Shown in pieces: positions 1,869 to 37,900 of a stretch of DNA of 46,529 nucleotides. The DNA lies in the IMG/VR virus record IMGVR_UViG_3300010885_083408, positions 1 to 46,529 of that record; one strand, 5' to 3'. The notes under the pieces were generated by a model. The model saw nothing but the letters and a program-made list of their open reading frames with translations. It was not told the origin of the DNA and searched no databases. Both the position numbers and the translations under genes were made by a program. Every line of letters begins with the position of its first letter. The stretch's first letter is position 1. This stretch comes from a virus.

Positions 1869-2099
1869 TTAGCCTTTCTGTTGTAGTCTTTTATTTTCTT
1901 CTTCTAAGTGATTGACCAGCAGAGCTATGTAGATTTCCCTTTCCCAGGGCATCATGGATTCCAATTCAGTGAGGCTATATTTGTGATACTGCATTAAATT
2001 GAAATTGGTTTGATAATAATTAAACAGGCTTTCGTGGGAAAGGATTATCCGAAAAAACTTTGCATGCCCTCCAGTGTTACTGTGTTGTGTAGACTGCAT
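1869..2099 (-). CDS. gp51-like small baseplate/tail assembly ORF, possibly expressed by -1 frameshift from gp26
   Basis: The ORF from the first ATG is 76 residues, but its first 18 codons lie inside the end of gp26 in another frame and look unlike a protein N-terminus. The convincing part begins near ESLFNYYQTNFNLMQYHKYS and ends with MMPWEREIYIALL and the helical LEEENKRLQQKG. No good start with a ribosome binding site precedes that part; the only other ATG is internal, at 1994. The position directly after gp26 matches T4 gene 51, a hub-assembly factor, although the protein is far shorter than T4 gp51 (249 residues). A T6C slippery run just before the gp26 stop offers an alternative: production as a gp26-gp51 fusion, as in gpG/gpGT tail chaperones. 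I consider the C-terminal 60 residues real and the start unresolved. Confidence 0.6.
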   Translation of the reverse strand: MQSTQHSNTGGHAKFFRIILSHESLFNYYQTNFNLMQYHKYSLTELESMMPWEREIYIALLVNHLEEENKRLQQKG

Positions 2100-2740
2100 T
2101 CCTTGCAGTCCCAGTCTAGGTCATGCTTCAACACCGGCATGGTGGCAAAGAATTGTTCGATCTTGTCCAGGCTAGCTGGTGGCAGGCTTTCAACAAACTC
2201 AACAAGTTCAGCCACACTGTAGTCAGCGGCACTGTATTGTTCGTCGCCCTTCCAGATGCTGTCAATGCTGGTAGAGATTAGTCGAATAATGGCATCTACA
2301 TCGCGTTGCTGCAGCATGTCTTCGACTTCACGCATTCTGGGATAGCGCATCTTGACCAGCAGATCCTGGTCCAGCTCAATGGTGTTGCTGTGTTCTGCGG
2401 GTTTGTTTACTGCCACAGAGGTAATGTCCAGTGTGGCGTTGCTCTTGGCGCCGCATGGACAGGTCAGAGTCAGATCAACCTTTTCGCCCACACTGTGTGC
2501 GCGAATCTGCATGAACAGATATTCAACATCAAAGCTGGCCAGTTTTCTGGCATCAATCTTGCCCAGAGTGCAGGCCGAGATTACGCCTTCAATGGCTTCA
2601 ATCTGCTGCTCGGAACTTCCCGATGCAGCCATGAGCAGTTGTTTTTGTTCCTTGACCAAAAACGGACGAAACTTTATGGCTTCGCCGTTGCTGGGTAAAT
2701 TCACGGTGTGAATCGGTGTATCAAATACTGGTAAAGACAT
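2045..2740 (-). CDS. 26: gp26-like baseplate hub assembly protein (T4_baseplate family)
   Basis: This 231-residue protein begins MSLPVFDTPIHTVNLPSNG. It has the conserved FRPFLVKEQKQLLMA segment near residues 26-40 typical of the T4 gp26 family. A CPCG motif and a later CKEC pair (near residues 94-97 and 212-215) look like a small metal-binding element. Length is close to T4 gp26 (208). In T4, gp26 is needed for hub assembly and is present in few copies or absent from the mature tail, so it may act as a chaperone. The start is supported by AGGAGA ten bases upstream. The last codons AGT TTT TTC GGA TAA contain a -1 slippery heptamer leading into the gp51-like frame. It lies 25 bases after gp54 in the leftward unit. 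Confidence 0.8.
   Translation of the reverse strand: MSLPVFDTPIHTVNLPSNGEAIKFRPFLVKEQKQLLMAASGSSEQQIEAIEGVISACTLGKIDARKLASFDVEYLFMQIRAHSVGEKVDLTLTCPCGAKSNATLDITSVAVNKPAEHSNTIELDQDLLVKMRYPRMREVEDMLQQRDVDAIIRLISTSIDSIWKGDEQYSAADYSVAELVEFVESLPPASLDKIEQFFATMPVLKHDLDWDCKECSLHNTVTLEGMQSFFG
2051..2057 (-). other. Candidate -1 ribosomal frameshift site T TTT TTC
   Basis: In the gp26 frame the sequence reads AGT TTT TTC GGA TAA, so the heptamer T TTT TTC has the X XXY YYZ form with both tRNAs able to re-pair after slipping back one base. After the slip, translation continues CGG ATA ATC CTT into the gp51-like frame and gives a fusion of about 290 residues (230 from gp26 plus 60). I see no strong stimulatory hairpin within 40 bases downstream, which lowers certainty. 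Confidence 0.5.
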
Positions 2741-18334: not shown

Positions 18335-21300
18335 ATGAATTTTAATCAAGCGCCCTATTTTGACGATTTTGACGAACAGAAAAAGTTCTACAAGATCCTC
18401 TTCCGACCTGGTGTAGCAGTACAGACTCGAGAAATCAATCAGCTCCAGACCATACTGCAGAATCAGATTGCCAATTTTGGTGACAACATCTTCAAGGATG
18501 GTAGTCAGGTCATTCCAGGCCAGGTGCAATACAATGGCAAGCTGAGCTACATCAAACTCAGCGCCAAGTCTCTGGGCACCAATAGTTTAAGCTATCTGGA
18601 AGGCAAGGAAATCAGCACAGGCACTCTGGGCACAGGCGTCAAGGCCATGGTGGTCAAGGCCATGGTGGATGATGGTACAGATCCCGACACCCTGATTCTA
18701 ACCTATATTTCCAGCGACGAAGGTGGGTCGGGCACGGGTGCCAAGACGTTCAGCGCAGGTCAGACTTTGTACGTGGTAGACGAGCCCGCGCTCAGCATCA
18801 CTGTGCTGGGTGGTAGTGCTTCCACGGGTCGCAGTGCAGTTGCCAGCGTGCAGAAGGGCGTATATTACCTCAAGGGATACTTTGTCTATGTCGAAGAGCA
18901 GACCGTGGTGTTGCAGAAATACATCACCGACATCACAGCATTGAATGCCAAGGTTGGACTGCAATACACGGAAAGCGTAGTCACTGCCGACGACGATGGC
19001 AGTCTCTATGACAATGCCAATACTACTACAAACTATACCGCGCCCGGCGCACATCGTTTTAGCATTGACGCGGTACTGACCAGCTATTCAATTGATACTG
19101 AAACCGAAGATTTCTATGAACTGATTCGCATTCAAGACGGGGTCACTCAGCAGATCACAAATCGCAGTCAGTACAACATACTGGGCGACACCCTGGCACG
19201 CCGCACCTATGATGAGAGCGGCAACTATGTGGTGGATCCATTTAAGATCAGCATTCGCGAACATCGCAACAACAGTCGTGGCAGCTGGGGCAGTCTTGTA
19301 AGCTATCAGGTCAACGACTTTATTCAGGTCAACGGTGTATATTTTGTCTGTGTACGTGCTGGTACCAGTGCTCTTACACAGCCAACTGCGTTTGCCACAG
19401 CCGACGAAACCGCGGTGGTAACCGATGGTACTGTATACTGGAGATATACACGCAGCCCCAGAAACAACAACGGTGCCTATACACCAGAGCTGGGCGGTGA
19501 CAGCAGCAATCTTGTCTACAGCATCGGCCGTGGACGCGCCTATGTCAGAGGCTATGAAATTGAACGCACCACACAAGGCAACATCACAGTCAACAAGGCT
19601 CGCAACACCAGCACTACGGTATCACAGAGTTTTACTCTGGCCAATGGTAACTACATTATTCTGGATCGCAACGCAACCTGGGGCATGCCCGATGTCAGCA
19701 CTGGTCCGCAGATCACCCTGTTTGACCGAGTTCTGGGCGACAGCAGCTACTCCACCAAGTTTGGTTATGGTCGTCCCGTGGGAACTGCGCGTGTAAAATT
19801 CATTGACAACGACTACACAGGCGGTGTCAAACTTGGACTCTACAGCGTCAACATGGAACCTGGCAAGCAGCTGGATCGCGATGTCAATTCAGTAGCTCAG
19901 ATTGACAGCAGCGCCGCAGTACAGACCAAGACCTACAAGTTGAGCGGCAACGGCGTTTATCGATATACTGGTAACTCACAGACCAGCCTGGCAGCTACAG
20001 CCAACACTATTACCATACCAGCCTGCACCAACAGCTCGACCCTGTTTATTGTTACAAGTTCTGGAACCTTCTTCACCAAGGTGCTGACCAGTGGCGACAC
20101 CATTCAGGTCACCAACACCAGCAATACGGTCAGCAGCTTCCTGGTCTCGGGTATCATCAATGATACCTCCATGATCATCAAGTACGTGGGCGGAACTGGA
20201 TTTGCCACTACAGCATATCTGACCAGCTACAGTCTGGTGTTGCCAGCCTATACGGTGTTTGGCGGATACTGGGGTGCATCCACGGCCGCGGCGCTGACCT
20301 ATGAACTCAGACCCGGAGATGCAGTCTTTCTAAGCTCGGCCAGCGTGTTTGTATCGGGCACGGTAACCAAGCTATTTACCTACACCGATGTTCATGGCGA
20401 CAGTCGTACGCGCATGACCATTAGCTCAGCTGCTACAGCAGTCCAGGCCAGAAGTGGTGCAGGACTGGATCTGTATGTTCAGTACACCGGACAGGGTGCC
20501 AGCTTTGTTGGCAACATCCTGGGCAAGTACAGCGTGGGTGTCAACTCAAGAAAGCTTACTGGTCAGTTCAGTCTGCGTGACGTAGACGGCAACACAGTAT
20601 TGAATCCACAACCACACCAGGCAGTGCGAATCGTGGCTGCGGGTAGTGATGCCCGACTATTGACCGAACAACTTAATATCAATGATCTAATCAACATCAA
20701 CAACTACAACATTCTGGTTACACGACGTTCCGATAACCTCAAGGTATTTGGTGTCTGTCTGGATCAGGCCGTTGTTCCCAGCACCACCAACTATGCGGCC
20801 TTTGTCATCACCAACAAGGTCTATGACGCGGGCCAGGCCAATCTATTGTTCAAAATCGACCAAGTTCCTGCGCAGATCACCGACAACAGCTACAAGATCT
20901 ACAAGACAGAAAACTTTGCGCTCAACAACACCAGTATAATTACCCTGACCTTGAACTCCACGGGCAGCATCAGTGAAAGTTCGTTTACCAATGCTCCACT
21001 AGACTATCTGGCCAGCATTGTCGACACCACGGCAATTACCACACAGCTGGGCATCTACTATGTACAGCCCTATGGCAGCACGATTCAGATCTTCCTGAAC
21101 AGCAGCATCACCAACAATGTGCGGGTTGTGTATCCAGTACAGAAAACTGCGACAGCTGGCCAGCTGGGCGGACTCAAGACCAAGACACTGACCTATGATC
21201 AGACAGCGGAGATTCTGAGCAGCAGTCTTGCCCAGATGACCAGAGTGGTATTGCCGCATGCCGATGTATATCGCATCAACAAGATCCTGATGTCACGCGG

Positions 21301-24300
21301 ATTTGTAACCAGCTGGAGCGTTCAGGCAGCGGCCACGGCCATTGATGTCACTGGAAACTATCAGCTAGACGATGGTCAGAACGATGCTTTCTATGACTAC
21401 AGCAAGTTAAAACTCAATCCAGGGGCACCTACTGCCAGCGGTTCCATAAAAGTCTACTATGATTACTTCCTGCATGGCAGCGGCGATTTCTTTACCAAGG
21501 ATAGCTACAGCCCCAGCCAGGTGCCCTATGAAGTAATTCCAGACTACAAGGGTGTTGCTCTGCGCGACTATCTGGATTTCCGTCCATTGATTGGCACTAA
21601 TGCCACCCTGGCCAATGTCAACATGCTGCGCTATGGTACCAGTTTTACCTGCAGCAGCAATCGATATTTGCCACGCAAGGACAAGATCCTCATCGACAAG
21701 AACGCAGCCTTCAATGTCATCAGCTCGGCGCCCAGCAATGTTCCAGGTGATCCATTGACCAGTCAGGCCAACGACATCATGGAGGTATTTGACGTTGATC
21801 TCAGCGCCTATACCGACAACACAGACTGGCCAGAAATTGCCTACAAGGTCAAGGAAAACCGTCGCTACACCATGAAAGATATTGGTAATCTGGAAACACG
21901 TATTGCCAATCTCGAAGAGGTGGTAACACTGAGTCTGCTGGAAGTCAAAACCAAGAGCCTGCAGATACGAGACAACAAGGACAGCACACTGGAACGGTAC
22001 AAGACTGGTTTCTTTGTAGACCCGTTCAGAGATCAGACCAACGCTGAAAATACTCCGGACAATCGTTTCAGCATTGATCCGCAGAATCAGACCATGCAGG
22101 CTCATATCAGCCCCTATGGTTTCCCCCTGGTTGAAAAGATCAACTATACAGCCTATACCAGCACCACGGGCGCCGGTGGTGAGTTGACTCCTATTACCGC
22201 GGCTCGAGCAAATCAAAACTATCAGGTCACTGGTGATTATATCACTCTGCCCTACACCACCAGTGTGGTCATCAAGCAGTTGTTGGCTACCAGCAGCATT
22301 GCAGTATGCCCATTCTTAACACTGACCTTCCTGGGGCAGATGAAGGTATATCCTGACAAAGACATCTACGAAGATGTCACCACCATTCGACTCAACGTTG
22401 AAAACAAAGACAACGCACAACGACTCAAAGAAGCCGTGGAGCTTGGCCAACGTCTATATGGTTCACAATATACCATTGATGCTGGTGCCACCACCAAGAC
22501 AATCACAACCAAAGTCGACCTGGGCCTGATTCCATATTGCCGTGCCAATACCCTGGCCGTGGTTGTTACTGGTCTAAAACCCAACACCAAGCACTATCCC
22601 TTGATTGATGGTGTGGATATTCGTAGCTACACCACGGGTGCCATCAAGTTCACCATGCAGTATCTGGACCTGTTGAAATTCTATCATATTCGTCCCAATG
22701 GCAACAAGGACTGGGCTCGCTGGCGCAGCCTGACCCATACTGATACTGTGCGCAAACGTGTCAGCACAAAAATCAGCAAGTCGGGTTGGACCACAGAGCG
22801 CGTAACCTATTTCCCCAAGGACTATGACACCAATTTGCCTAGCAGCAAGTATGGTGATGCATTCCGCACAGCGTTTGCCACGGGCGCCAGCGTATACTAT
22901 CGCGAAGGCGGAGTTGTTGGATCCGGTGTAGCCATGCTGCAGGACGGCAACACCATCTACATTGCCAATGCGCGTGGCAGACTGTCACCAAAATATGTAC
23001 GTAGTCGTCCAGCGAACTCATATCTGTTCAATGGTCAATGGAACATAGCTGGCATTACTGGTTCATATTTTTCATATCTGCCAATTCAGCTCAGAACTGC
23101 CCTGCAGGTCTGTACCGATGACACCGAAGGTAATCTGTACAGCGATGACAAAGGTAATCTGGTATTTACCATTGACTTTCCCAACAACGATCTGCAGAGC
23201 TTCTTCAGTGGCGATAAACACATTGTCATCAGCGACAGCCCAACTGATGCTCCCGACGACTGGACCAGCCGAGCCGAAGCCAACTACAAAGTCGAAGGCT
23301 ATAAAATTGTCATAACCAAGACAACCACAACAACCAGAACCTACAGCCCGCGCTATGTTCCACCTGCTCCACCGCCTGAAGATCCTATTGCGCAGAGCTT
23401 TAAGATTCCCGACGGCTATGACAATGGCATCTTTGCCACGGGCGCCAGCGTGTTTTTCCAGGCAGTTCCTCCTAGCGATGCACTGCCCCTGGTGTTCCAG
23501 CTTCGTGTATGCGATGCCACTGGGCGTCCAGGTCCCGAAGAAGTTCCAGGCACAACAATAGTCAAGTTTGCCAGCGAAATTACCGTGGATTCCAGCACAG
23601 CCAACCGAGCTACAGTGTTTAACTTTGATCATCCAGTGCATCTCAAACCCGAGGTAAATTACTGCATGGTGTTGAAAACCGACAGTCCAAGATTCAGGGT
23701 CTGGATTGCGGTACTGGGTCAGGGCGACGTCCTGGATCCAACCAAGAGCTATACCACTCAGGGTAACCTGGGCAGCTTTTTCAAATCGCAGAACAATACT
23801 CTCTGGACCGAAGATCAGACCGCGGACATGAAATTCCAGATTCATCGCGCAGTATTCAACACCAGCGTCACCGGTGTTGCCTATGTGGTGAACCAGAATA
23901 TTCCGCCTAAACCATTGCCAACCAATCCATTTACACTGATGCATGGCAGTGCCAAGATTCGAGTCGAACATCCTAACCATGGGTATCGCAACGGCGATCT
24001 GGTTCGATTCCATAGTCAAAGCTATGCCGCAGCCTATGCCAATAGTTCAGGCCTGACTCTGGCTGGTATTCCAGTCACAGAAATTTTTGGTACCACCATT
24101 GCCACTGAACAGGTTGCTGACACTGATCTAAGCCTCACAGTTGAAAGTTGCCAGCTAGACAGCTATGTGGTGACTGCGCAGACCATTGCCAATCTTGGTG
24201 ATGCTGCAACCACAGCCGAGACTCTGAGAGCCGACGGCGGTAACGGTATATTTGCCAACAGCCAGGTACTATATCATGTGTCGACACCGCAGATTCCCAA

Positions 24301-25369
24301 CATCAGCTTCAACAATACCAGAATTAAATTCACAGGCTACAAACTGGAAGGTCATACCTATGACAATCTGCCAACCAGCGCAGCCAGCTATACACAGACT
24401 GCCGACGTCATGGATCTTAACATACCCTATGTTGAGAACAGCAGTCCCAAGATTGTGCTCACCGATCTCAACGAAAACAATCGATTTGCCGGAGTGTCCA
24501 TTACCGCAGGGTCTGGAACGCAGACCTGGTTTGACAGTTTTGTTGGTCGTCTGGACCTCAACAGCGATGTTGATGCACTAAGTCCAGCGATTGACATGAG
24601 CTCGGCTCACCTCAATGTGATTCAGCATCGCATTGATAATCCAACTGCTAGCCAGCGTCTGGGCGGCGGAACCCTGCCACCCTATGGTACAACCAGCACC
24701 TTCATTGTATATCAGACCGTGGTCAGCAGCGTAACCAACATTGCCTTTAATAGTGCAGAACAAAGCATTGTCAGTGCCACAAGTTCGTTTGGTTTAATTG
24801 TTCCAGGCCGCTACATCACCATCAGTGGTGCAGCCAATGCCAGCAACAACAATACCAGCACTGGTCTGCGAGTAACCAATGTGAGTCAGGACGACAGTAA
24901 AATCTTTGTAAGCAGCAATACCATCGTGGACGAATTGGCTGGTAGTTCCATAACAATTCGTCAGCTACAGGACTTTACCGAAGAGGCAACGTTTATTGAC
25001 GCCAGCGGTGAAAGCAAGTATATTACACGCAAGATTAACCTGGAAAATCCTGCCAGCCAGCTCAAGATCATCATGGACATCAATTGTCCAGCCGAAGCGA
25101 ATTTTGATATCTACTATAAAGTTGGCAGTGCAACTCAGGACTTTAACCAGCTGGTCTGGGACAACTTCGAACAGTTGACTACACCTAGCAAGGACAACAA
25201 TCGCAGCGTGTTTACCGAATACGAAACCACCATCACTGGATTCGATAGTTCGGGCTTCCCTATTGATCTAAGCCCATTCACAGCCTTCCAGCTCAAGATT
25301 GTGATGCGCAGTACCAATGGAGCACGCATTCCTAAGTTTGCAAATCTTCGAGTAATTGCACATGCATAA
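18335..25369 (+). CDS. Very large virion protein with N-terminal DUF4815 domain (baseplate/fibre connector candidate)
   Basis: The protein has 2344 residues. The N-terminus, with APYFDDFDEQKKFYKILFRP and AVQTREINQLQTILQNQIA, then GDNIFKDGSQVIPG, is the DUF4815 signature seen in large structural proteins of aquatic T4-like phages. The middle is beta-rich. Residues about 1180-1230 form a helical coiled-coil segment (NLETRIANLEEVVTLSLLEV). A Thr/Pro-rich linker near residue 1660-1682 (KTTTTTRTY; PPAPPPEDP) precedes DPIAQSFKIPDGYDNGIFAT, a domain repeated in such proteins. Near residue 1875 a HPNHGYRNGDLVRF module resembles those in the proteins at 10804 and 41519. It follows gp8, where T4 has gp9-gp11, so it may link fibres to the wedge. 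No catalytic motif is visible. The stop overlaps the next start by eight bases. Confidence 0.75.
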   Translation: MNFNQAPYFDDFDEQKKFYKILFRPGVAVQTREINQLQTILQNQIANFGDNIFKDGSQVIPGQVQYNGKLSYIKLSAKSLGTNSLSYLEGKEISTGTLGTGVKAMVVKAMVDDGTDPDTLILTYISSDEGGSGTGAKTFSAGQTLYVVDEPALSITVLGGSASTGRSAVASVQKGVYYLKGYFVYVEEQTVVLQKYITDITALNAKVGLQYTESVVTADDDGSLYDNANTTTNYTAPGAHRFSIDAVLTSYSIDTETEDFYELIRIQDGVTQQITNRSQYNILGDTLARRTYDESGNYVVDPFKISIREHRNNSRGSWGSLVSYQVNDFIQVNGVYFVCVRAGTSALTQPTAFATADETAVVTDGTVYWRYTRSPRNNNGAYTPELGGDSSNLVYSIGRGRAYVRGYEIERTTQGNITVNKARNTSTTVSQSFTLANGNYIILDRNATWGMPDVSTGPQITLFDRVLGDSSYSTKFGYGRPVGTARVKFIDNDYTGGVKLGLYSVNMEPGKQLDRDVNSVAQIDSSAAVQTKTYKLSGNGVYRYTGNSQTSLAATANTITIPACTNSSTLFIVTSSGTFFTKVLTSGDTIQVTNTSNTVSSFLVSGIINDTSMIIKYVGGTGFATTAYLTSYSLVLPAYTVFGGYWGASTAAALTYELRPGDAVFLSSASVFVSGTVTKLFTYTDVHGDSRTRMTISSAATAVQARSGAGLDLYVQYTGQGASFVGNILGKYSVGVNSRKLTGQFSLRDVDGNTVLNPQPHQAVRIVAAGSDARLLTEQLNINDLININNYNILVTRRSDNLKVFGVCLDQAVVPSTTNYAAFVITNKVYDAGQANLLFKIDQVPAQITDNSYKIYKTENFALNNTSIITLTLNSTGSISESSFTNAPLDYLASIVDTTAITTQLGIYYVQPYGSTIQIFLNSSITNNVRVVYPVQKTATAGQLGGLKTKTLTYDQTAEILSSSLAQMTRVVLPHADVYRINKILMSRGFVTSWSVQAAATAIDVTGNYQLDDGQNDAFYDYSKLKLNPGAPTASGSIKVYYDYFLHGSGDFFTKDSYSPSQVPYEVIPDYKGVALRDYLDFRPLIGTNATLANVNMLRYGTSFTCSSNRYLPRKDKILIDKNAAFNVISSAPSNVPGDPLTSQANDIMEVFDVDLSAYTDNTDWPEIAYKVKENRRYTMKDIGNLETRIANLEEVVTLSLLEVKTKSLQIRDNKDSTLERYKTGFFVDPFRDQTNAENTPDNRFSIDPQNQTMQAHISPYGFPLVEKINYTAYTSTTGAGGELTPITAARANQNYQVTGDYITLPYTTSVVIKQLLATSSIAVCPFLTLTFLGQMKVYPDKDIYEDVTTIRLNVENKDNAQRLKEAVELGQRLYGSQYTIDAGATTKTITTKVDLGLIPYCRANTLAVVVTGLKPNTKHYPLIDGVDIRSYTTGAIKFTMQYLDLLKFYHIRPNGNKDWARWRSLTHTDTVRKRVSTKISKSGWTTERVTYFPKDYDTNLPSSKYGDAFRTAFATGASVYYREGGVVGSGVAMLQDGNTIYIANARGRLSPKYVRSRPANSYLFNGQWNIAGITGSYFSYLPIQLRTALQVCTDDTEGNLYSDDKGNLVFTIDFPNNDLQSFFSGDKHIVISDSPTDAPDDWTSRAEANYKVEGYKIVITKTTTTTRTYSPRYVPPAPPPEDPIAQSFKIPDGYDNGIFATGASVFFQAVPPSDALPLVFQLRVCDATGRPGPEEVPGTTIVKFASEITVDSSTANRATVFNFDHPVHLKPEVNYCMVLKTDSPRFRVWIAVLGQGDVLDPTKSYTTQGNLGSFFKSQNNTLWTEDQTADMKFQIHRAVFNTSVTGVAYVVNQNIPPKPLPTNPFTLMHGSAKIRVEHPNHGYRNGDLVRFHSQSYAAAYANSSGLTLAGIPVTEIFGTTIATEQVADTDLSLTVESCQLDSYVVTAQTIANLGDAATTAETLRADGGNGIFANSQVLYHVSTPQIPNISFNNTRIKFTGYKLEGHTYDNLPTSAASYTQTADVMDLNIPYVENSSPKIVLTDLNENNRFAGVSITAGSGTQTWFDSFVGRLDLNSDVDALSPAIDMSSAHLNVIQHRIDNPTASQRLGGGTLPPYGTTSTFIVYQTVVSSVTNIAFNSAEQSIVSATSSFGLIVPGRYITISGAANASNNNTSTGLRVTNVSQDDSKIFVSSNTIVDELAGSSITIRQLQDFTEEATFIDASGESKYITRKINLENPASQLKIIMDINCPAEANFDIYYKVGSATQDFNQLVWDNFEQLTTPSKDNNRSVFTEYETTITGFDSSGFPIDLSPFTAFQLKIVMRSTNGARIPKFANLRVIAHA

Positions 25370-25944: not shown

Positions 25945-28900
25945 ATGACAATCCGCAAGGTATTGGGTGCCACGTCTAGTCTGGTAACAAGAGCTGAATT
26001 AGTCAGCGGCGCCCCCGTAGTTATTTCCAAGGCCATTGTTAGCCGTAGTCAGATACAGGCTCAGCTTCAGCCGAGCTCGGGCATCATCAAGGTTGCCCAG
26101 AATCCCACCACTCTCATTGGCCGGGTGTTCTACGACACCGACGGCGGACTGAGCCGATTCCTGCGCGATTATTTAATTGGATCAGACAGCATACTGCTGT
26201 CCTTGATTATTGGACGCAGTTTCAACGAGGTGCTGAGCGCAGTAGATCTGTTCAGCATTACTCAGTTTTATCTAAGCAGAGTTGTTGTAGACACCGCAAG
26301 CTTCAGTGAAAGCTCTACACTGCGTGTCTCCAAGTCAGCGCAGGATTATCTTACTCTGGGTGAAACCTCGGCAAAAACTGCCAGCAAAACCCTGGCAGAT
26401 CAAATTCAAATTCTCGATGTTCTGGATTTTGTCTACCGAATCATAGGCATTGCTCCACGCGACACACTTACTCTGGGCGATTATCAAAATCTCAGAGTCG
26501 CGCAATTAAAACTAGAAACTCTGGGCGTGTTTGAGGCTGTCAACAAGCTGTCGGGCAAGCCCGTGGCCGACAGCGTGTCCATACTAAGTAGCCTGGACAT
26601 CGAAGCCCTGATTGGTCTTGTACGTCGTGAAACAGTTCAGGTTCAGGAAGCACGTGCCCTGACTGTGAGCCTGCCCAAGATCGAAGACTTGACTGCGGAA
26701 GATACGCCGTATAAACTCATTGGTAAACCGCAGAGCGAAATCATTGATGCCCGCGAAGTCCTTGTGCCATTGATAGGCAAAGGATTATCAGAACAAATCA
26801 ATTCAGTTGAAACCCGAGCTTTTTATATAACTGCACCCAAGATCGAAGACTTGACTGCGGATGATGTGCCCTATAAACTCGTTGGTAAACCTCAGCTAGA
26901 CGAAGTCAACACCGAGGCTGTCTATGTTCCATTGATTGGCAAAGGATTGTCGGAACGAATTACTGCCACGGAAAGCAAGATCTTTGATCTATCACTGACC
27001 AAGACCGACAGTCTGTATGGTGTGCAGGAAAACATCTACAAGTTGTTTGATCTGAGTCTGGTCAATCGCGATCCAGCCACGGTTAGTATACTGGATACAT
27101 CTAGCCTGTTGCCCATCAAGCTGGTGCAGGATCTGTTTGCCCAATCCGACTTCCGTGTACTAGACATAAGCAAATCTTTTGCCGACATTGCCAGCATGCT
27201 GGATCTTGCCGGAGTCTACGACGGCAACGTATTTGACTGGATAACCAATCGCTTTGATACACTGATAACCAATGATGTTATTGCCAGAGTGTCTCGCACC
27301 AGTCGCAGTATTGACGACATCGTCAATTCCAATGATGATTTTGCCCGCGTGTTTTCGGTTCAGCGACTTCTGCAGGATACGCAGACTCAGTCCGATGTTC
27401 GTAGTCTGTTCATCACTTCACTTAAATCAGACTCAGTCAGCTCTGCGCAGGACCGAATCTACAAGCTCGTGGGAGCTAGACGCACGGATCAGCAGGAAAT
27501 TGTAGATGCCGGCGCCACCAAATTCTTTGGACTGAATATACTCACAGATCCAGAGATGCTAGAAAAGGCCGAGTTTGTGATACTAAAAGCTGGTATCAAT
27601 GACACCGCGGCCAGCACCGAATATTTTATGCGCAGATTCAATGCCACTCGAGGCTTTGCAGAATCCGCGTATTTTGGCGATGGGCCATTCCTGAGTCAGC
27701 TTAAAAGAGTCGCTGACACGTCTACATCCACCGACAATTTTGCCAAGGTCTGGCAGGCTGGACGCCGTGTCAATGATGCTGTTGGCAGAGAAGATCGGAT
27801 CTACAAGTTTGTGCAGAAGATGCCGGCACACAGTCTGGTCATTGGCGAAAGAATTCGGAGCTTTGGGTTCACCAAGCTGCTGCAGGACATTGCTGCCATG
27901 GTGGATCTGGCCGGCATCTTCGACGGCAACATCTACAACTTCAGCAAGTCCATTAGCGAGCCAACACTCAATGTCAGTGAATTCCTGGCACGTGCCGTAA
28001 AATTCCGTCGTCGTAGTCGCGATGGTTTCATCGACAACGTAACCATAACCGATTTTCTGAGCATTGTCATACCCATTGGACTGCAGGATGTTTTCCAGGT
28101 TCGGGATCTGCCTCCGATATTTGTCGGTGGCCGTGTGGTCCGCGAGCAACAACCAGCCAACGACGTGTTCTATCGTCAGGTAGCTTTCTATCGCTATCCA
28201 CATCACAACGACATCGGCATAGCTGGCGAAGGTTTCAACAGCATCACACCGGCGCTGGACGACAGTCCATTTGGTACTGCGCCAGCCAAGAGTTTTGTAA
28301 CTGCCATACCCAGCCCCACCAAGGGAGACACCACCTCCACCGCCGTGGTGGTAGGCGGCATTGGTGCCTTCCGAAATCAACCTGGTCGTGAAACTGCTCA
28401 GTTATTGCTGAACATCGATGCCAAGGCTGGTGCCACCTACACCACCACCAGCAAGACCACGGACTTTGTCATACCCAATGCCAGTTTCAAGATTCGCAGT
28501 TCGCCGGCTCACAACAGTTCCGTGGGTACAATTATTCGACCCCGAGATCGCGATCAGGTCGGCACCGTAGATTTCCAGACTTATATACTGCTGGGCGGCC
28601 GCCGTGTCGGCGATTCAGTGCTGCTGGGACGATCCGACGGTCTGGGTTTCAAGGTATCGGGATTTGAAACTTCGGTACTTCCCTTTAATTATTTCACGGT
28701 GCAGACCACGGGCACCACCAGCACCGCAGCTGTGGTGCCCACAACCTCGATATTAACTGATATAGCAACCGGCAATCTTGTTGGGAGCTACGACGACGGC
28801 TACGTGCCCTATGCGCTGCCCTGGAATGTCAGCTGGTATGGTCGTAGCAGCAACACCATCTACATAGGCACCAACAGCTACATCACCTTTGATAGTGGAC

Positions 28901-31900
28901 AGGCTTCCTTTACTGGAATTTTTGCCGCTGCCGCTGGCAACTTGACGGGCATACTGAGCGTCAATGCCGGCTCGTTGGGATTATCCTCGGATTATATTCT
29001 TGACAGCCTGGGTGCTGCCATCACTGGTACTGCTCCTAATCGCATAGCCACGGTTGTCTACAAAGGCCATCAGTATGGTTATACTCCAACAACCGACGAC
29101 GATTATAATACCTGGCAGGTTCAGTTCTTTGAGGCTCGCCCCTGGCAGCACAGCATCAGAATGCAGGCCACGCGTGGCTACAGTTTCTTTGACACCAGCA
29201 TAGGTGCCTACAGCAGCAGCGCCGCAGTCAACATCTGGACCAATGGTTATGATCTTCAGGCAACTCAGGTTCGCCAAGTTACCGATCCTGCGATCATGCA
29301 GATTGGCACCAGCTCTAGCTTTACCTTTGCCACCAGCAGCTATGCGGTACAGGGAGCGGCCACGCTCATCGGTGAGGTCACGCCTTTCTTCTTCATTGGC
29401 AGAAAATTTGATGCCGTGCAGCTTGGTACTGCGTTGAGACCCAGCAGCAGCAATGTAAACCTAGTGGCGTTCAGCACCGACATCGGCGCAGCTGCCTGGG
29501 ACATTGGTGCCAGCTACATCACGGTCACCAGAAACGTTGCCGACAGCTATGGCATCAATCCCTTTGGTGTTACTTCACAGGTTACACAGCTGACCAGCAC
29601 TGCGGCTCAGGAAATCGACGGCAAGGGTAACCCAACTGGTAACTGGCCGTCAGCGTATTTTGGACAGAAACTACTCAGCGGTGTTGGTCGAAACCAGCCA
29701 CACAATTTCAGTGTGTGGGTAAGAACAACCACGGGCAATACTGCTAGCTTTGGCATTGCTGCTTCTACAGCGGGTGCGGCCGGTACCTTCAACACTCAAC
29801 TTGCCATTACCGCGACTCCGGTCTGGACTCGTTATGATCTGGATTTCACACCCACGGTGGCCACCCCCAACATCATGTTTGGTACGCCGTCTGGTGATGC
29901 TAATCGGTTTACCGACGGCTCGGCTCCGGTGTATGTCTGGGGCGCACAGGTTACACCTGGCAGCGGTGTAAGAGCTACTTATACGCCAACAACCAGTGGC
30001 GCAATTATTGTACCCGCAGATCGTTTCAGCGGCGACCCGCTGGAAAACGTCAGCTATTTTATGGGCAAACGTGCCAAGGTTGGTGTGGCATCAACCACCA
30101 GTGGTATCTCCACCAGTGCCAGCGGTGTGCTGGATCCGGTTATTGTTGGATCACGCTATCCTGGTGTGCGTCGTGTCAGCGGCGATGTGTTTGAAAATGT
30201 CAAGATTGTAGACACCAAGAGTCTGACTGACGTTGTAGTCGAGCCCTACAACAACATCATGCCAGAGTTTGCCAGCGTGGTCTACAACAGCATTGGTTAT
30301 CCAGCTGGTACCCAGGGCTGGGCCATAGACGATCAATATGCTCTGCCTCGTCTGGTCGACGACGAAAATCTCGGTATCTGGAACTACACCACCAGCGGTG
30401 TTGTGCGCGGCACCATCAGTGTTCTCACACCCGATGAAACTGCTATTAGCTATCAGGAAAACAACGCCAGCTATGGACAGCCTGTTGGACAAGTAGCAGT
30501 GCAGGCATTTAATTCTCCGTTCTGGGTTGGCGGTCTGCCCTTTGGTTCTGTCACCATGGACCTCAGTCGCACCCGTCTGTTGTTTGGCAGTGGTTCCAGC
30601 ATCAATCTTGGCACTACATCGGAAAGCGCGGTCTACGACTGGCCCAGTGTAGACAATTTCAATTATCTCTGGGTCAGCAGCACCATTACCTTGCTCAACG
30701 CTGTGGGCAATCCAGTTGATTACCCAGTCACGCTGGTGGATGAAAACGGTGCTCTGGTTACAACACCGCGCGGAGATAATGCGCCCTATCTCAGCATCGT
30801 CGAAGGGCTGCCTGCCGCGGGCTGGACTGGCTGGCGCGTAGTGCAGGCACAATGGTGGGCTCCCGAATTCTATAATTATTACAACAACAGGCTTCAGTAT
30901 TCCACGGAATTTGATGGCTTTGGCACCAGCTATCTGCGTGCCGTAACCGTGGAAATTGCTTTATATCGTCATACCGCTACTGGTCAGCAGATCATTAGTT
31001 ATGCCCAGCCCTACTATGGGCCACAGAACGTCAATGCATCATTGTTGATGCTCAGCGACAATCGCGCATACTATGGCGATTCGATCTACATAGCGCCAAC
31101 TGTGTCGTCAACTGCAGTAATGTTGAGCGGCCGCCGCGGATTTTTTACAGCCCGAAGTCTGGGGTATGCTGGTCTTTCTCTTACCAATGAAGAACTTTAT
31201 AGCGGAGCTCGTCCAGCCAATCGAGTTGGAACAGCAACCAGCTATGCAACCAGCGTTGTTAGTCAAAATACAAACTATCCACCGTCCTATGTTACCAGCG
31301 TGGGTGTTAGATTTGGTAGCATGGAGCCTAACAGTTCAGATGCCACCGTGGTTGAAGCTTTATACCATGGCAGTTACTCACCATACTACGTGGTTACCGT
31401 GGATCGCTATGGCGATGGCGTGGATCAGGTCGCCATGGTATATCACACATCACCCAGTTTGGCTGCATTTGCTGCACCAGATTATAGCACCACGGGCTGG
31501 GATAGTACTACTCAGCAGTTTGTGCGTCCCGGTACCTACGTGGCCAGCGTCTATGTTGATCCAAGCAAGGTTACCTCGGGTGCAACTCCCAGTGATAGTC
31601 CAGTAGACGCTCAGGCCCTGGGCGTTACAGTCTATACTGTGGGCAACAACCCCAACCTGACTTCCACCACCACGGGCTACAATAACTTCCTGGATGCCAG
31701 CAGCATAGCAACCGTGTACTTCCAGGCCGGCTATGCCACCAACAGCAGCACTGGATTGACCTATCCAACCTTGACCGCGGCTAGCAGCGTGGGATCGGTA
31801 TCCAACATCACGGTAACGCCGGAAAGAATCTGGTTGGATGCCAATGGAAACATGGTTGGAGATCCTGCGCTGAGTTCACAGACCTATGTCGCTGGCACCT

Positions 31901-34900
31901 ATGTTGATACTGCAATCTGGTATCGCGTAAGTTTTGTCTACAATGTAAATACATCGATATCGGTTCTGCGTGGATTGTCTGGCGATGATAGCTATCTGGC
32001 TCATCGCGATGCTGGACCAAACACCGCGGGTGTGCGTCGTTTCCGCATGCGTTTCAGTCAGCATGCTGTCTGGGGTGGAGTTGTTGCGCCTGTGTCCAAC
32101 TCGCTGACTATGCCCACCCGCAACTTCCGTCTGCAGGCACCGCAGCTAGAATATGCGCCTCGCACACAGACCAGACCCAGCAGGTACATCAACACTCTGT
32201 ACAGAACAACAGGAACCAACAGTGTTTCGCAGATAACAGCGACTCAAGCCACGCAGACCTACGAACGAGTCAAACAAACCGGTAAAGTCATAGCCGATAC
32301 CCTGGATTACGCTACATCTGCTACACTGAATGCAGCCGCGCTCAGCGGGTCTACTCTGTGGGCCAGCGCCAGTGGTGTAGTATATGAGACCGAGGTCAGC
32401 AATAACTGCATTGTAAATACCCTGTTTAGTCTGGTCAACATCAGCGGAACTCGATTTATTCAGACCACGTCCAGCACGGCTTCATCCTGGACTCTGAATT
32501 TCTCCTATCTGGTGGGCGCCAGCGGCAACGGATATGGTAGTTTAGAAAACGGTGAAAATTATGTGCTGCAATATCGCAGCACCAGCACATCTAGCTGGAC
32601 CACGGCCACCACGCTGTGGTTTGGCGGCAGTTCCTGGACACAGGGCAGTACTTATCGCCAGACGTCATATACTCTGACACTGGGCACAACAACCAGTCTG
32701 AGCTGGCGGTTTGCCTTGTTCAATGTTGATGCTGGAAACACTGCTGATGGTGCGGCTTTGTCTGGTGTTACCATTCGCACCAACAGTGTTTCCAGCATCA
32801 ACTCGGTCTCCATGACAAGCCCCGTGGGCCTGTCCGACAGGGTTGCAGTTGCCGGCACAGAAACCAATCCGCTGTTATTGTACAGCAGTGGGCTGGTTAC
32901 CCGCACCGGTGTCACAGAAAGAATTCAGAGTCTGCTGGGCAAGCTCACGCGCGATACGCTGATCCTGGGCCGCGGCACTGTCAGCGAAACCTATCCCGAA
33001 CGACGCAGTGGCGACAATCTAGACAATCCAGCGTTCTTTATAAACAAATCAGCCAAGACTGGAACCACCTCGGTGTTTACTGGTGTAGCCACCAGTGTGA
33101 CGTCGGTGGCCACCAGCACCGAACGCATCTTCATAGGCGACCCTAGTTTGTCTGGCCTGCGTCGCATCAGCGGACAGTATCTGGAAAACACGACCTTCTA
33201 TGTCAGCAAGTCAGCCAAGCAGGGTCGAGTATCGTCCATAGCCATACAGACTATACTGGGCAACAATGGAGCTGCCAGTTCAGTATTGTTGTCACAGACT
33301 ACCTCGGACACCGACGTAGTTGGTACACTGAGTGCCTATGCTGATGTCCGAACCTTTGTACGCTATCCCTGGTACAACAACTTTGATGGAGTGCCCGGTG
33401 CCTTTGCCGATGGTTCGACCATAACAGACCCTGCCCAGTTGTTGGTGGGCAAACGCGCTACCCGAGGTACAGATCCAGTCTCGGCCACGGACGTCACCGG
33501 CGTCTTCAGTCCCTACCTGCCCAAGCTCATCATCAAGGATGCCAAGCGCGGTGCTGCCGGCACCTATCTAATCAACACCATAGATCCAAACCCCGACGTG
33601 GAGTACGGCTATGGTAGTTCAGCAACCGTGACTGCCGGACCCTATGACTTTGATGCCGTGGGCACCCTGGATCAGTTCTATCTGACCTACATGCTATATC
33701 GTCTGTTCCAGGAGAATACGCAGATACTGGACAACGATGCTTTCTTTATCACCAAGTTGTTGCGTGACTCCGCGGTCATGCTGGACCTCACCGATGTGTT
33801 TGATGGTCTGGTGTTCAACAGCGTTCTAAACAGAAATGAGACAGTAACCTTTGGCAGTGGACAGACCAGCATTACCTTCCCTGCAGCCAGACGAACCGGT
33901 GCCAATGAGCGTGTAGTTCTTGACACATCACAGACCAAGTTTGAGGTGTTGACACAGCCCGACAATGATGCGTTGTTCATCACCAAGCCCATGGACACCG
34001 TGGACAATGCCAACAGAACGGTTACTGTGTTGGATGCCGATCGGTTGTTGGTGGGCAAACGCGCCACAGTTGGCACAGATCCAGTTTTGGCCACGGACGT
34101 CACTGGCAGTTTTAGTCCCTATGTTCCACGCTTCATTGGCAAGACTGCCAAGCGCGGTGCCAGTGGCACAGTGGCACTCAAGACCATTGACGGCACAGTC
34201 AACGATGGCCTCTACAGTTCCTTTGCAGTAACCTATGGCAGCTATGACATCGATCTGGTGGGCAGCATTGACTTACTGACTCTGCAGTTCAGCGGTCCTC
34301 GCAGATTCTTTGAAACCCTGTTGATTGGCAGTGGCTTTGACCAGCGTCAGGACAATCTAGAAAATGTTCGCTTCTTTGTTGGTCAACGCGCAGGCCTGGA
34401 TCAGGGATCATTTGATAGTTTTGATCCAGCAGTGATGCTGGACCGAATTACCGCGTTCAACGCCACCAAGGGACTGCTGATAGATGCCACGCCAGCGCTG
34501 GACGACAGTCGGTTCAGTCCATATCCTGCAAAATTCCTGAGCCTGAGTGCCAAGCAGGGCCGCAGTGTTACCTTTAGCAGCATCACGGTTACCCTGCGTG
34601 ATCCCGACACCCTGTATGCGGGTGCAACCACATCGCTGGTGAGTCGCATAGATCGTCTGGAAAGAACCTTGTTCTTTGTCAGCAAGTCTGCGGATGCTGT
34701 AGTGCCTGCGCAGGTGGTGATTGGCGGCGACACTGGCTTCCGTTATCAAAGCACAGAAAGCCAGCTAGAAAACACCAAGTTCCTGGTGCTAAAACGTGCC
34801 ACAGTTGGCGCCGATCCGGCCACCGTGATTGATCGTGGCCAGTTCAGCATCTATCCAAGTCGCTTCTTCAGCAAGACAGCTCAGCTGGGTGCAGCCACCA

Positions 34901-37900
34901 CCATTGCCATCAAGACGCAGGATGTGGCCGGCAACAACGACAACGGCTATAGTTCCGTGGCTATCTCTACTGCCACCACGGATCTTGACTTCTTTGGCAC
35001 CATTGACTTACTGACTCTGCAGTTCAGCGCACCACGCGTCGTCAACGACATCGTCACCATAGGCAGCGGACTGGATCAGCGTCAGACCACACTGGAAAAC
35101 ATCAGTTTCTTCATCACCAAGTTGATTGGTGACAGAAGCGAAATACTAGACCTCACCGAAGTCTTTGATGGACTGAACTATCGCAGCACCCTATTAAAAC
35201 GTGAAGTTCAGATCATGGGCAGCGGGCAGACCAGCCTGACCTTCCCTGCACGCAGCAAGACCGGCAACAATGAGCGGGTCGCCTTCAATGTAGCATTGAC
35301 AGCCAAGCAGGGCCGTGGCACCTGGTTGGGCGACGGCAATTTAATTACCTTTAGCACCATTGCCAGCAGCAACTGGAACTACAACGCCGCAGAAAGTTCT
35401 ACCACGGCCACGGCCGGCATTGCCGACCCGCTGGGTTTTGGTCAGACCGTGTATCAGTTCAACGAAACTGTGCAGTATACACCGGAACAAGACGGCAAAG
35501 GCAATCCAACCGGTAACTATCTCACAGTAGCTAACCCTCACTGGGTAGAAACCACTACCAATGCCTTCCCTGCATCTGGCAGCAGCTACACCGTAAGTTT
35601 TTATGTACGTGATGGTAATGTTGGCAATCCACGATGGGTGGTGTTGACCGATCCCCATCTGATTGCAGCCAACGAGGCAGTTAACTATAATCCACGTCTG
35701 GGCACCATTACACGAACAGCCAGCAGCAGTCGTGTAGTAAGCGCTGGCATGTACCCAGTAGGTGCACTTGGCTGGTATCGTTGCTGGGCGCAGGTAAGAA
35801 TGACGGCCGCAGGTCAGGGCACCATGCTGCGACTATATCTGGCCACTGACGGCACCGTCACCAGTGTAACCCAGTTGAGCTATGTTGGTGTTACCAGTTC
35901 GGGCGTGTTTATCTGGGGACCGCAGGTCACACCAGGTCAACGCCTGCAGAACTATGTGGCCACCACGGGCACTCCTATACTTGTCAATTCCAACACCGGT
36001 GCTGCCACAGATGTGCAGCGTGTTGGTGCCAGCACTGCTGCCAGAAACGACATCGACGAAACCATGTCCTATCTGGTGGGCAAGCTAGCCGACAATCTAG
36101 TGCCAGCACAGGTTGTCACAGGCAGTGGCTTTGACCGGCGCCAGGCTCAGCTGGAAAATATTAGTTTCTTGGTTGGTCAACGTGACGCCGAGGTCACAAC
36201 GGCGCGGGACAGCAGCACTTTTAGTCCATATCCGGCTCGTTTGTTCACCAAGTCGGCTCAGCTGGGCACCGCCACCACCATTAGAATTAAAACGCGCGAT
36301 GCAGCCGGCAACAACGATGGCATCAGTACTTCCGTGGCAATCACTACGGCCACCACAGACCTTGACTTCTTTGGTGTCATTGACCTCATCACTTTGATCA
36401 GTGTACCAATTCGCTATGTCAATGACACCGTTACCATAGGCAGTGGACTGGATCGGCGCCAGACCACCCTGGAAAACATCCGGTTCTTCATTGGTAAGCT
36501 CATAGGCGATACTACACCGATATTAGACCTTACCGAAGTCTTTGACGGCCTAAAATATAGTTCAACCATACTTAAACGTGAAATTGTACCGGCTCTGGAT
36601 GGCAGTCAGTTTAGTCCGTATCCGGCTCGTTATGTAACCAAACTACTAGATCCCAGTGGACTCGCAGCAGCATCAGCCGCGGTCACTGGTGCAACCAACA
36701 ATGGTTATGGCGGCAGCACTGGCAGCGGTGGCGATCAGGGCGGCGGTGGCGGTGGCGGTGTTGGCACCAATGCAGTTAAAAATTCATCGGGAAATAGTTG
36801 GGGCGACAACGGTGCCAACGCCGCAGATTTTCAGGGACTGAGTCAGGTTCTCGTACAGGCCGGCACCTTCCTGGGTCTGGGTGGAGCCGGCGCCGATGCG
36901 TTCGCCGTCCCTAGCGACGGTAAACAGGGTGGTAATGGCAGCGGTATTGGCGGTGGTGGCGGCGGTGCTGGCTACTATGGCGGCGACGGCGGCGCTGGTA
37001 GTCCGGGCGGTGGCGGCGGCGGAGCCGCGGGTTATACTGTAACTCACGTTGGCGGCGCTGGCGGTAGCGGCGTTACGGTGCTGCATTTTGTAACAGCTAG
37101 TGGCAGCAGTGCTGTCGTGGTAGCTACTCCGGGCCGAACCAACTATTCAGTACCAGCCAATACACTGTCGATACGTACCTGGGTAATTGGCGCCGGTGGC
37201 AGTGGTGCGGGCGCAACCACTGACGATAGCTCTGCGGGTGGCGGTGGTGGCGCTGGTAGCATTGCCTATGCTAGCTGGCCCAGCAATGTCGGATATTATA
37301 CCGGCACCATAGTGATTTCCAATGGTGCGGCTAGCTTGGGCGGTTCTGGCGCCGCCAACGGCACTGCTGGTCAATCTTCGACCCTGACCTATGCTGGTGC
37401 TAGTTTAACTGCCAACGGAGGTTTTGGCGGAACCTATAACAACAATACCTTTGCCTACGGGGGAGATGCCACCGTCAGCACCACCAGTGTCAGCATTATG
37501 GGCGCTGTAACTGGTGCAAATTTTGTTACCATGGGCACCACCAGCGCTGGCATACGCCAGAGTGGCGATGCGCTGGAAAATGTTCGCTTTACAGCGGCCA
37601 AGTTGGCCGATGCAGAAATTCCTGCGCGGGTATTGGTGGGCGGCGACACCGGCTTCCGTTATCAAAGCACAGAAAGCACGCTAGAGAACACCAAGTTCCT
37701 GGTGCTAAAACGTGCCACAGTTGGTGCGGATCCAGCCAGCATGCTGGACTACTTGCCCGCTCGCTTCTTTGCCAAGTCGGCTCAGCTGGGCACCGCCACC
37801 ACCATCAGTATCAAGACTCGCGACGCCACTGGCAACAACAATGCCATCAGCACTTCGGTAGCCATCACCACAGCCACCACAGATCTTGACTTCTTTGGTG

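Follow-up and report, generated by a model that had tools for sequence, protein, structure and literature searches.

In the 46.5-kb stretch of viral DNA analysed here (the window), gp26 and the gp51-like frame that follows it very probably constitute one tail assembly chaperone (TAC) gene with two products, the longer of which is predicted from the sequence to arise by a -1 frameshift at the end of gp26. The locus lies on the minus strand. The gp26 open reading frame (2740-2045, 231 aa) matches the profiles PF12322 (E=5e-62) and phrog_150, 'baseplate hub' (E=8e-67), and its 3' end reads GGAGGGC ATG CAA AGT TTT TTC GGA TAA. T TTT TTC (2057-2051) fits the pattern X XXY YYZ in the zero frame, and the gp26 stop codon TAA (2047-2045) follows closely, its last base 6 nt past this heptamer. 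The gp51-like frame is -1 relative to gp26 and stays open to 1869; a -1 slip would yield ...GMQSFF-RIILSHESLFNYYQ..., a 290-aa fusion in which 60 codons follow FF before the stop at 1871-1869. The original prediction had read the end of gp26 in this way and had proposed that slippage enters exactly the gp51-like frame, and the sequence agrees on both counts. The gp51-like C-terminal domain, counted from the slip site (2057-1869), matches phrog_634, 'hub assembly catalyst' (E=5e-29). TTTTTT occurs 11 times on the minus strand of the window, so that only about 0.001 chance hits would be expected in register within the last ~15 nt of a gene.

Together, the heptamer, the register, the missing gp51 start and the colinearity with T4 proteins described below make gp26 and gp26-51 best read as a TAC-N/TAC-NC pair. 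Most ribosomes would read gp26 and terminate at TAA, producing the TAC-N form. In a minority, the tRNAs of the P and A sites, standing on TTT TTC, would slip back one base to TTT TTT, and these ribosomes would continue in the gp51 frame to produce the TAC-NC form. Pairing of GGAGG, 10 nt upstream, with 16S rRNA would favour the slip, as would a stem whose 5' arm begins about 6 nt downstream, and the nearby stop codon may perhaps contribute as well. We infer the slippage itself, its efficiency and the effect of these stimulators, as well as the chaperone function. If the pair works as lambda gpG/gpGT does, the shared N-terminal part would coat the tape measure and the C-terminal domain would recruit tail-tube subunits. 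The suggested -1 frameshift from gp26 into gp51 has gained support, with nearly every sequence test of it positive and an invariant -1 offset.

As the original prediction had proposed, we aligned homologous gp26/gp51 junctions. Searches with gp26 and gp51 gave a first set of 87 IMG/VR loci with both genes, the window included; another three scans, started from different gp51 sequences, added 237 new loci, of which 124, non-redundant among themselves and against the first set, served as held-out loci. T TTT TTC, or the same run ending in A or T, stands in the gp26 register with gp51 at -1 in 87/87 loci of the first set, and T6 is in the gp26 register in 237/237 of the later ones. In most homologues, and in nearly all of the 87, the gp26 stop has its last base 3 or 6 nt beyond the heptamer. 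Elsewhere in the gp26 and gp51 genes phenylalanine is encoded by TTT and TTC in a ratio of 932 to 317, which argues that the invariant TTT-TTT is not mere codon usage. Named phages carry T6 in 14 of 19 cases, among them Kyanoviridae (including Pelagibacter phages), Schizotequatrovirus, Emmerichvirinae, Menderavirus, Ionavirus, Rhizobium phages and others, and all 19 place gp51 in the -1 frame. The five without T6 are Ackermannviridae and the Vibrio phages D533 and K444, all of which keep the -1 frame. At these loci (L097, L098, L099, L100 and L101) the run is weaker, ATTTTC, CTTTTC or CTTTTT, with the gp51 domain directly after gp26, and the change of frame may occur by another slip or by restart at TAATG.

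A conserved T run could in principle act on RNA polymerase instead, which would slip and produce mRNAs with an altered number of Ts that encode the fusion. In bacteria, stretches of nine A or nine T are known to make the polymerase slip (PMC5009743), and some homologues (L014, L030) do have eight Ts, but the window and most homologues have just six. What is conserved is a tRNA-slippage heptamer together with its register, the Shine-Dalgarno (SD) spacing and a downstream stem, none of which polymerase slippage would need, and we give this alternative hardly any credence.

The gp51-like frame does not have a convincing start of its own. In the window its sole upstream ATG (2099) falls inside gp26, and among 80 non-redundant loci the window is one of two with any upstream ATG in the -1 frame; it is absent from the other 78. 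The first downstream ATG is scattered in position and is most often found at codon 20-21, within the conserved FALMQ motif. Across the same loci, a coding pattern of variability (third codon position high, second low) starts right after the heptamer, indicating that the gp51 sequence is translated from the slip site. The original prediction had doubted that gp51 has its own start, and these loci bear it out; in the closest groups we met no homologue that lacks the run and has a conserved gp51 start.

These observations weigh on a second alternative, in which translational coupling yields gp51 as a short protein of its own: GGAGG would retain terminating ribosomes, which would then reinitiate in the gp51 frame. 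Coupled genes typically carry an SD-like sequence ahead of the stop codon (PMC5009743), many phage annotations treat gp51 as an ORF in its own right, and a start codon overlaps the gp26 stop in Vibrio XZ1/ValKK3, Moby, PhiW-14 and Rhizobium phages. However, no -1-frame start lies at SD distance in the window, and none is conserved among the 80 loci. The usual placement of the first ATG, so far into conserved sequence, and the onset of the codon signature at the heptamer also argue against coupling, which moreover leaves the invariant T6 and the 10-nt spacing unexplained and fits poorly with the one-piece homologues in T4 and a Campylobacter phage. We consider it very improbable. At seven loci (L094, L095, L096, L098, L103, L104 and L109) the annotated gp51 start overlaps the gp26 stop by one base (TAATG/TGATG or similar), and a coupled restart could coexist with frameshifting there. 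Annotated gp51 starts differ among the records of other named phages, and gp51 is unannotated in the records of S-CAM1, S-PRM1 (L112), ACG-2014e (L110), AS-zj (L106) and S-WAM1.

The predicted frameshift product has natural counterparts that are encoded in one piece. In T4 and other Tevenvirinae the long form is a separate full-length gene: in T4 gp51 the gp51 domain comes after PF12322 (residues 1-201), and T4 gp26 consists of PF12322 alone. When a profile of the predicted fusion products was compared with these proteins, T4 gp26 terminated at the slip-site FF, and hhalign placed the FF-RIILS region on residues 200-244 of T4 gp51. Against gp51 of Klebsiella phage KMI13 the same profile gave one domain match that spans positions 23 to 284 and crosses the junction. 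Campylobacter phage CPt10 encodes a one-piece 244-aa protein that matches both the gp26 and the gp51 parts. Membership of the gp26/gp51 family is thus indicated by the matches to PF12322, phrog_150 and phrog_634 together with colinearity with the T4 proteins. An AlphaFold2 model of gp26 (pLDDT 91.7) resembles other phage 'baseplate hub' proteins; a fold search with it against the PDB returned no significant solved structure (HK97 gp13, 2ob9, ranked 19th with E=2.0 and a probability of 0.16, which is not significant), and sequence searches of the PDB with gp26 found nothing. A likeness of the gp51 domain to HIV gp41 came from weak coiled-coil sequence matches in the PDB and was set aside as an effect of composition. 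In the window, gp26 carries C-P-C and C-x-x-C pairs at residues ~94-96 and 212-215 that recall a zinc-binding site, positions at which the residues differ in many homologues.

In order of transcription, genes for a gp4-like head closure protein and a gp2-like end protector are followed by the tail tube gene (3545-2766; phrog_45, E=2e-35), gp26, the gp51 domain, a holin-like gene (1867-1442) and a long ORF that is cut by the window end (1439-<3). The downstream ATG is probably the true start of the tail tube gene. The original prediction placed a holin and a putative tape measure downstream. The holin is upheld by profile matches (phrog_3427, E=2e-7; PF11351 above its cut-off), and the long ORF, for which PHROG profiles returned no match, is a putative tape measure by position. 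In Pelagibacter phage HTVC008M the gene at the equivalent position, one small ORF after gp51, does match tape measure profiles. The resulting order is tail tube, gp26/51, holin-like gene and putative tape measure, with the holin-like gene intervening before the last.

What the two products do is a question apart from how they are made. Even if the frameshift is real, gp26 and the fusion could be components of the baseplate hub or hub-assembly factors, a view with which frameshifting is fully compatible. Database names ('baseplate hub', 'hub assembly catalyst') and T4 genetics, which places gp26 in the hub (PMC3004832), point in this direction, as does the absence of a significant match to a known TAC fold. 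Against this, both the gene order (tail tube, gp26/51, putative tape measure) and the pairing of a short with a long form fit TACs; in T4 both gp26 and gp51 are classed among the hub assembly chaperones, and the particle lacks gp51 (PMC3004832); and gp26/gp51 have reportedly been identified as TACs (Vladimirov et al., 2022). We regard the hub role as unlikely. The role as a tape-measure chaperone is one that we infer from the gene order, the short/long pair, the T4 listing and the 2022 paper.

The original prediction had seen no clear stimulatory structure, and on this point it does not hold, since the heptamer is flanked by a selected SD-like element upstream and a covarying long-range stem downstream. 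The SD-like GGAGGG (2072-2067) was recognised by its sequence, codon bias and anti-SD energy, and its GGAGG (2072-2068) ends exactly 10 nt upstream of the heptamer. GGAGG stands at exactly this distance in 55 of 99 loci. The spacing fits the 9-14 nt reported for SD-like elements that act in -1 frameshifting (PMC5009743). The Glu codon within the element is GAG in 52 of 64 cases where 18.8 would be expected from the usage of each gene (P ~4e-19; this and the other p values, save those from independent contrasts on the gp26 tree, ignore relatedness), which makes it the most GAG-biased Glu column in gp26. For the Leu codon just before it, a final G is found in 47 of 63 cases, where 19.3 would be expected. 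The element is also the strongest anti-SD site in the last 150 nt of gp26. Its pairing energy was stronger in the discovery set (-7.95) than in synonymous-randomised sequences (-5.41); at the held-out loci, about a quarter of which have the exact GGAGG and others a weaker motif, the corresponding values were -6.71 and -5.23 (p=4e-12). By this codon evidence, the SD-like element is under selection at the codon level.

Downstream of the slip site, the RNA folds more stably than synonymous-resampled controls (mean z -2.46; held-out loci -2.60), and the effect is small inside gp26 (-0.58). Because the stems differ between lineages, RNAalifold found no consensus structure in the full codon alignment. 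A long-range stem emerged from the averaged pair probabilities, joining columns 14-25 to columns 110-121 of alignment A1. The window falls in the group with this stem, which pairs 2044-2035 with 1946-1937: the 5' arm, TCCTTTCCCA, begins 6 nt past the heptamer, and the 3' arm, TGGGAAAGGG, lies within the gp51 codons W-E-R. Covariation argues for the pairing, with 48 doubly changed cells against 26.3 after shuffling (0/500), and so does a comparison with within-column synonymous permutation (z=-6.5; z=-12.8 in the 124 held-out loci). At the third-position synonymous pair 18-117, the held-out loci have TA in 39 and CG in 24 cases versus CA in 9 and TG in 4 (Fisher 1e-8). Independent contrasts on the gp26 tree agree for this pair (same-way changes 6.2 of 9, opposite 0.1, p=0.03), with control pairs null; pair 15-120 gave no clear result in these contrasts.

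A strong long-range stem is present in about half of the loci. Counting local and long-range stems together, 83% of 204 loci have a strong one, compared with 26% at a control place, and 35 of the 204 have neither type. Several sets of loci lack the long-range stem and often have strong local hairpins of differing sequence (L010, L016, L029, L034, L044 and L065; L020, L024, L067 and L073; L032, L070 and L112). These local hairpins lie roughly as far from the slip site as the long-range stem does, and the distribution of the two types by lineage suggests turnover of the stimulator. We hold it to be about an even bet that in aquatic T4-like phages the chaperone frameshift is driven by an undescribed signal composed of an internal SD at exactly 10 nt, an invariant T TTT TTN and a stem, either local or spanning ~88 nt with its 3' arm in the conserved PWERE codons; that the type of stem follows lineage; and that the T4 lineage exchanged the frameshift for two genes.

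Several characterised systems provide comparisons. Like lambda gpG/gpGT, whose frameshift mechanism has been described (PMC5009743), the present locus has, upstream of the putative tape measure gene, a presumed chaperone gene with a predicted -1 frameshift site close to its end and with a short and a long form. The slip site differs, a holin-like gene intervenes here, and the likeness is one of arrangement. T4 offers a homologous pair, gp26 being colinear with the unshifted product and gp51 with the fusion, but its two forms are separate genes on opposite strands and need no frameshift. The arrangement of an SD-like element ~10 nt upstream, a slippery heptamer and a downstream stem recalls E. 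coli dnaX; here, however, the heptamer is T TTT TTC and the stem is long-range, with arms ~88 nt apart and the 3' arm in gp51 codons. In phage Adele (Vandenendeviridae/Andersonviridae), TAC-N ends in a conserved poly-T motif at which a -1 shift takes place (PMC12846349). Adele belongs to another virus group, and its motif is GTTTTT.

The annotation of gp26 and gp51 in T4-like phages is inconsistent: gp51 is given arbitrary starts or omitted, and both are called baseplate hub proteins. Vladimirov, Gautam and Davidson (2022, Virology 566:9-15) reportedly proposed -1 frameshifting in several T4-like groups, and are said to have described separate genes 26 and 51 in T4's group. PMC12846349 and PMC10885494 credit the T4-like TAC genes to these authors. 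The idea of a frameshifted gp26/gp51 TAC is thus already published for T4-like phages, and the window adds another case. What may be new are the SD-like element and the long-range stem with its covariation, traced here across about 200 related sequences; a literature search that covered mostly papers outside subscription found no description of either at gp26/gp51. Reading gp26 and gp51 as one frameshifted chaperone gene would correct the annotation of hundreds of genomes. In addition, the natural series of local and long-range stems lends itself well to studying how frameshift efficiency depends on SD pairing and on the geometry of the stem.

Elsewhere in the window, two large ORFs lie on the plus strand. 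One (18335-25369) encodes 2344 aa with a DUF4815 domain. The other (25945-40323) encodes 4792 aa, has a sole Pfam match that is glycine-rich and late in the protein, and is probably a giant tail fibre or adhesin.
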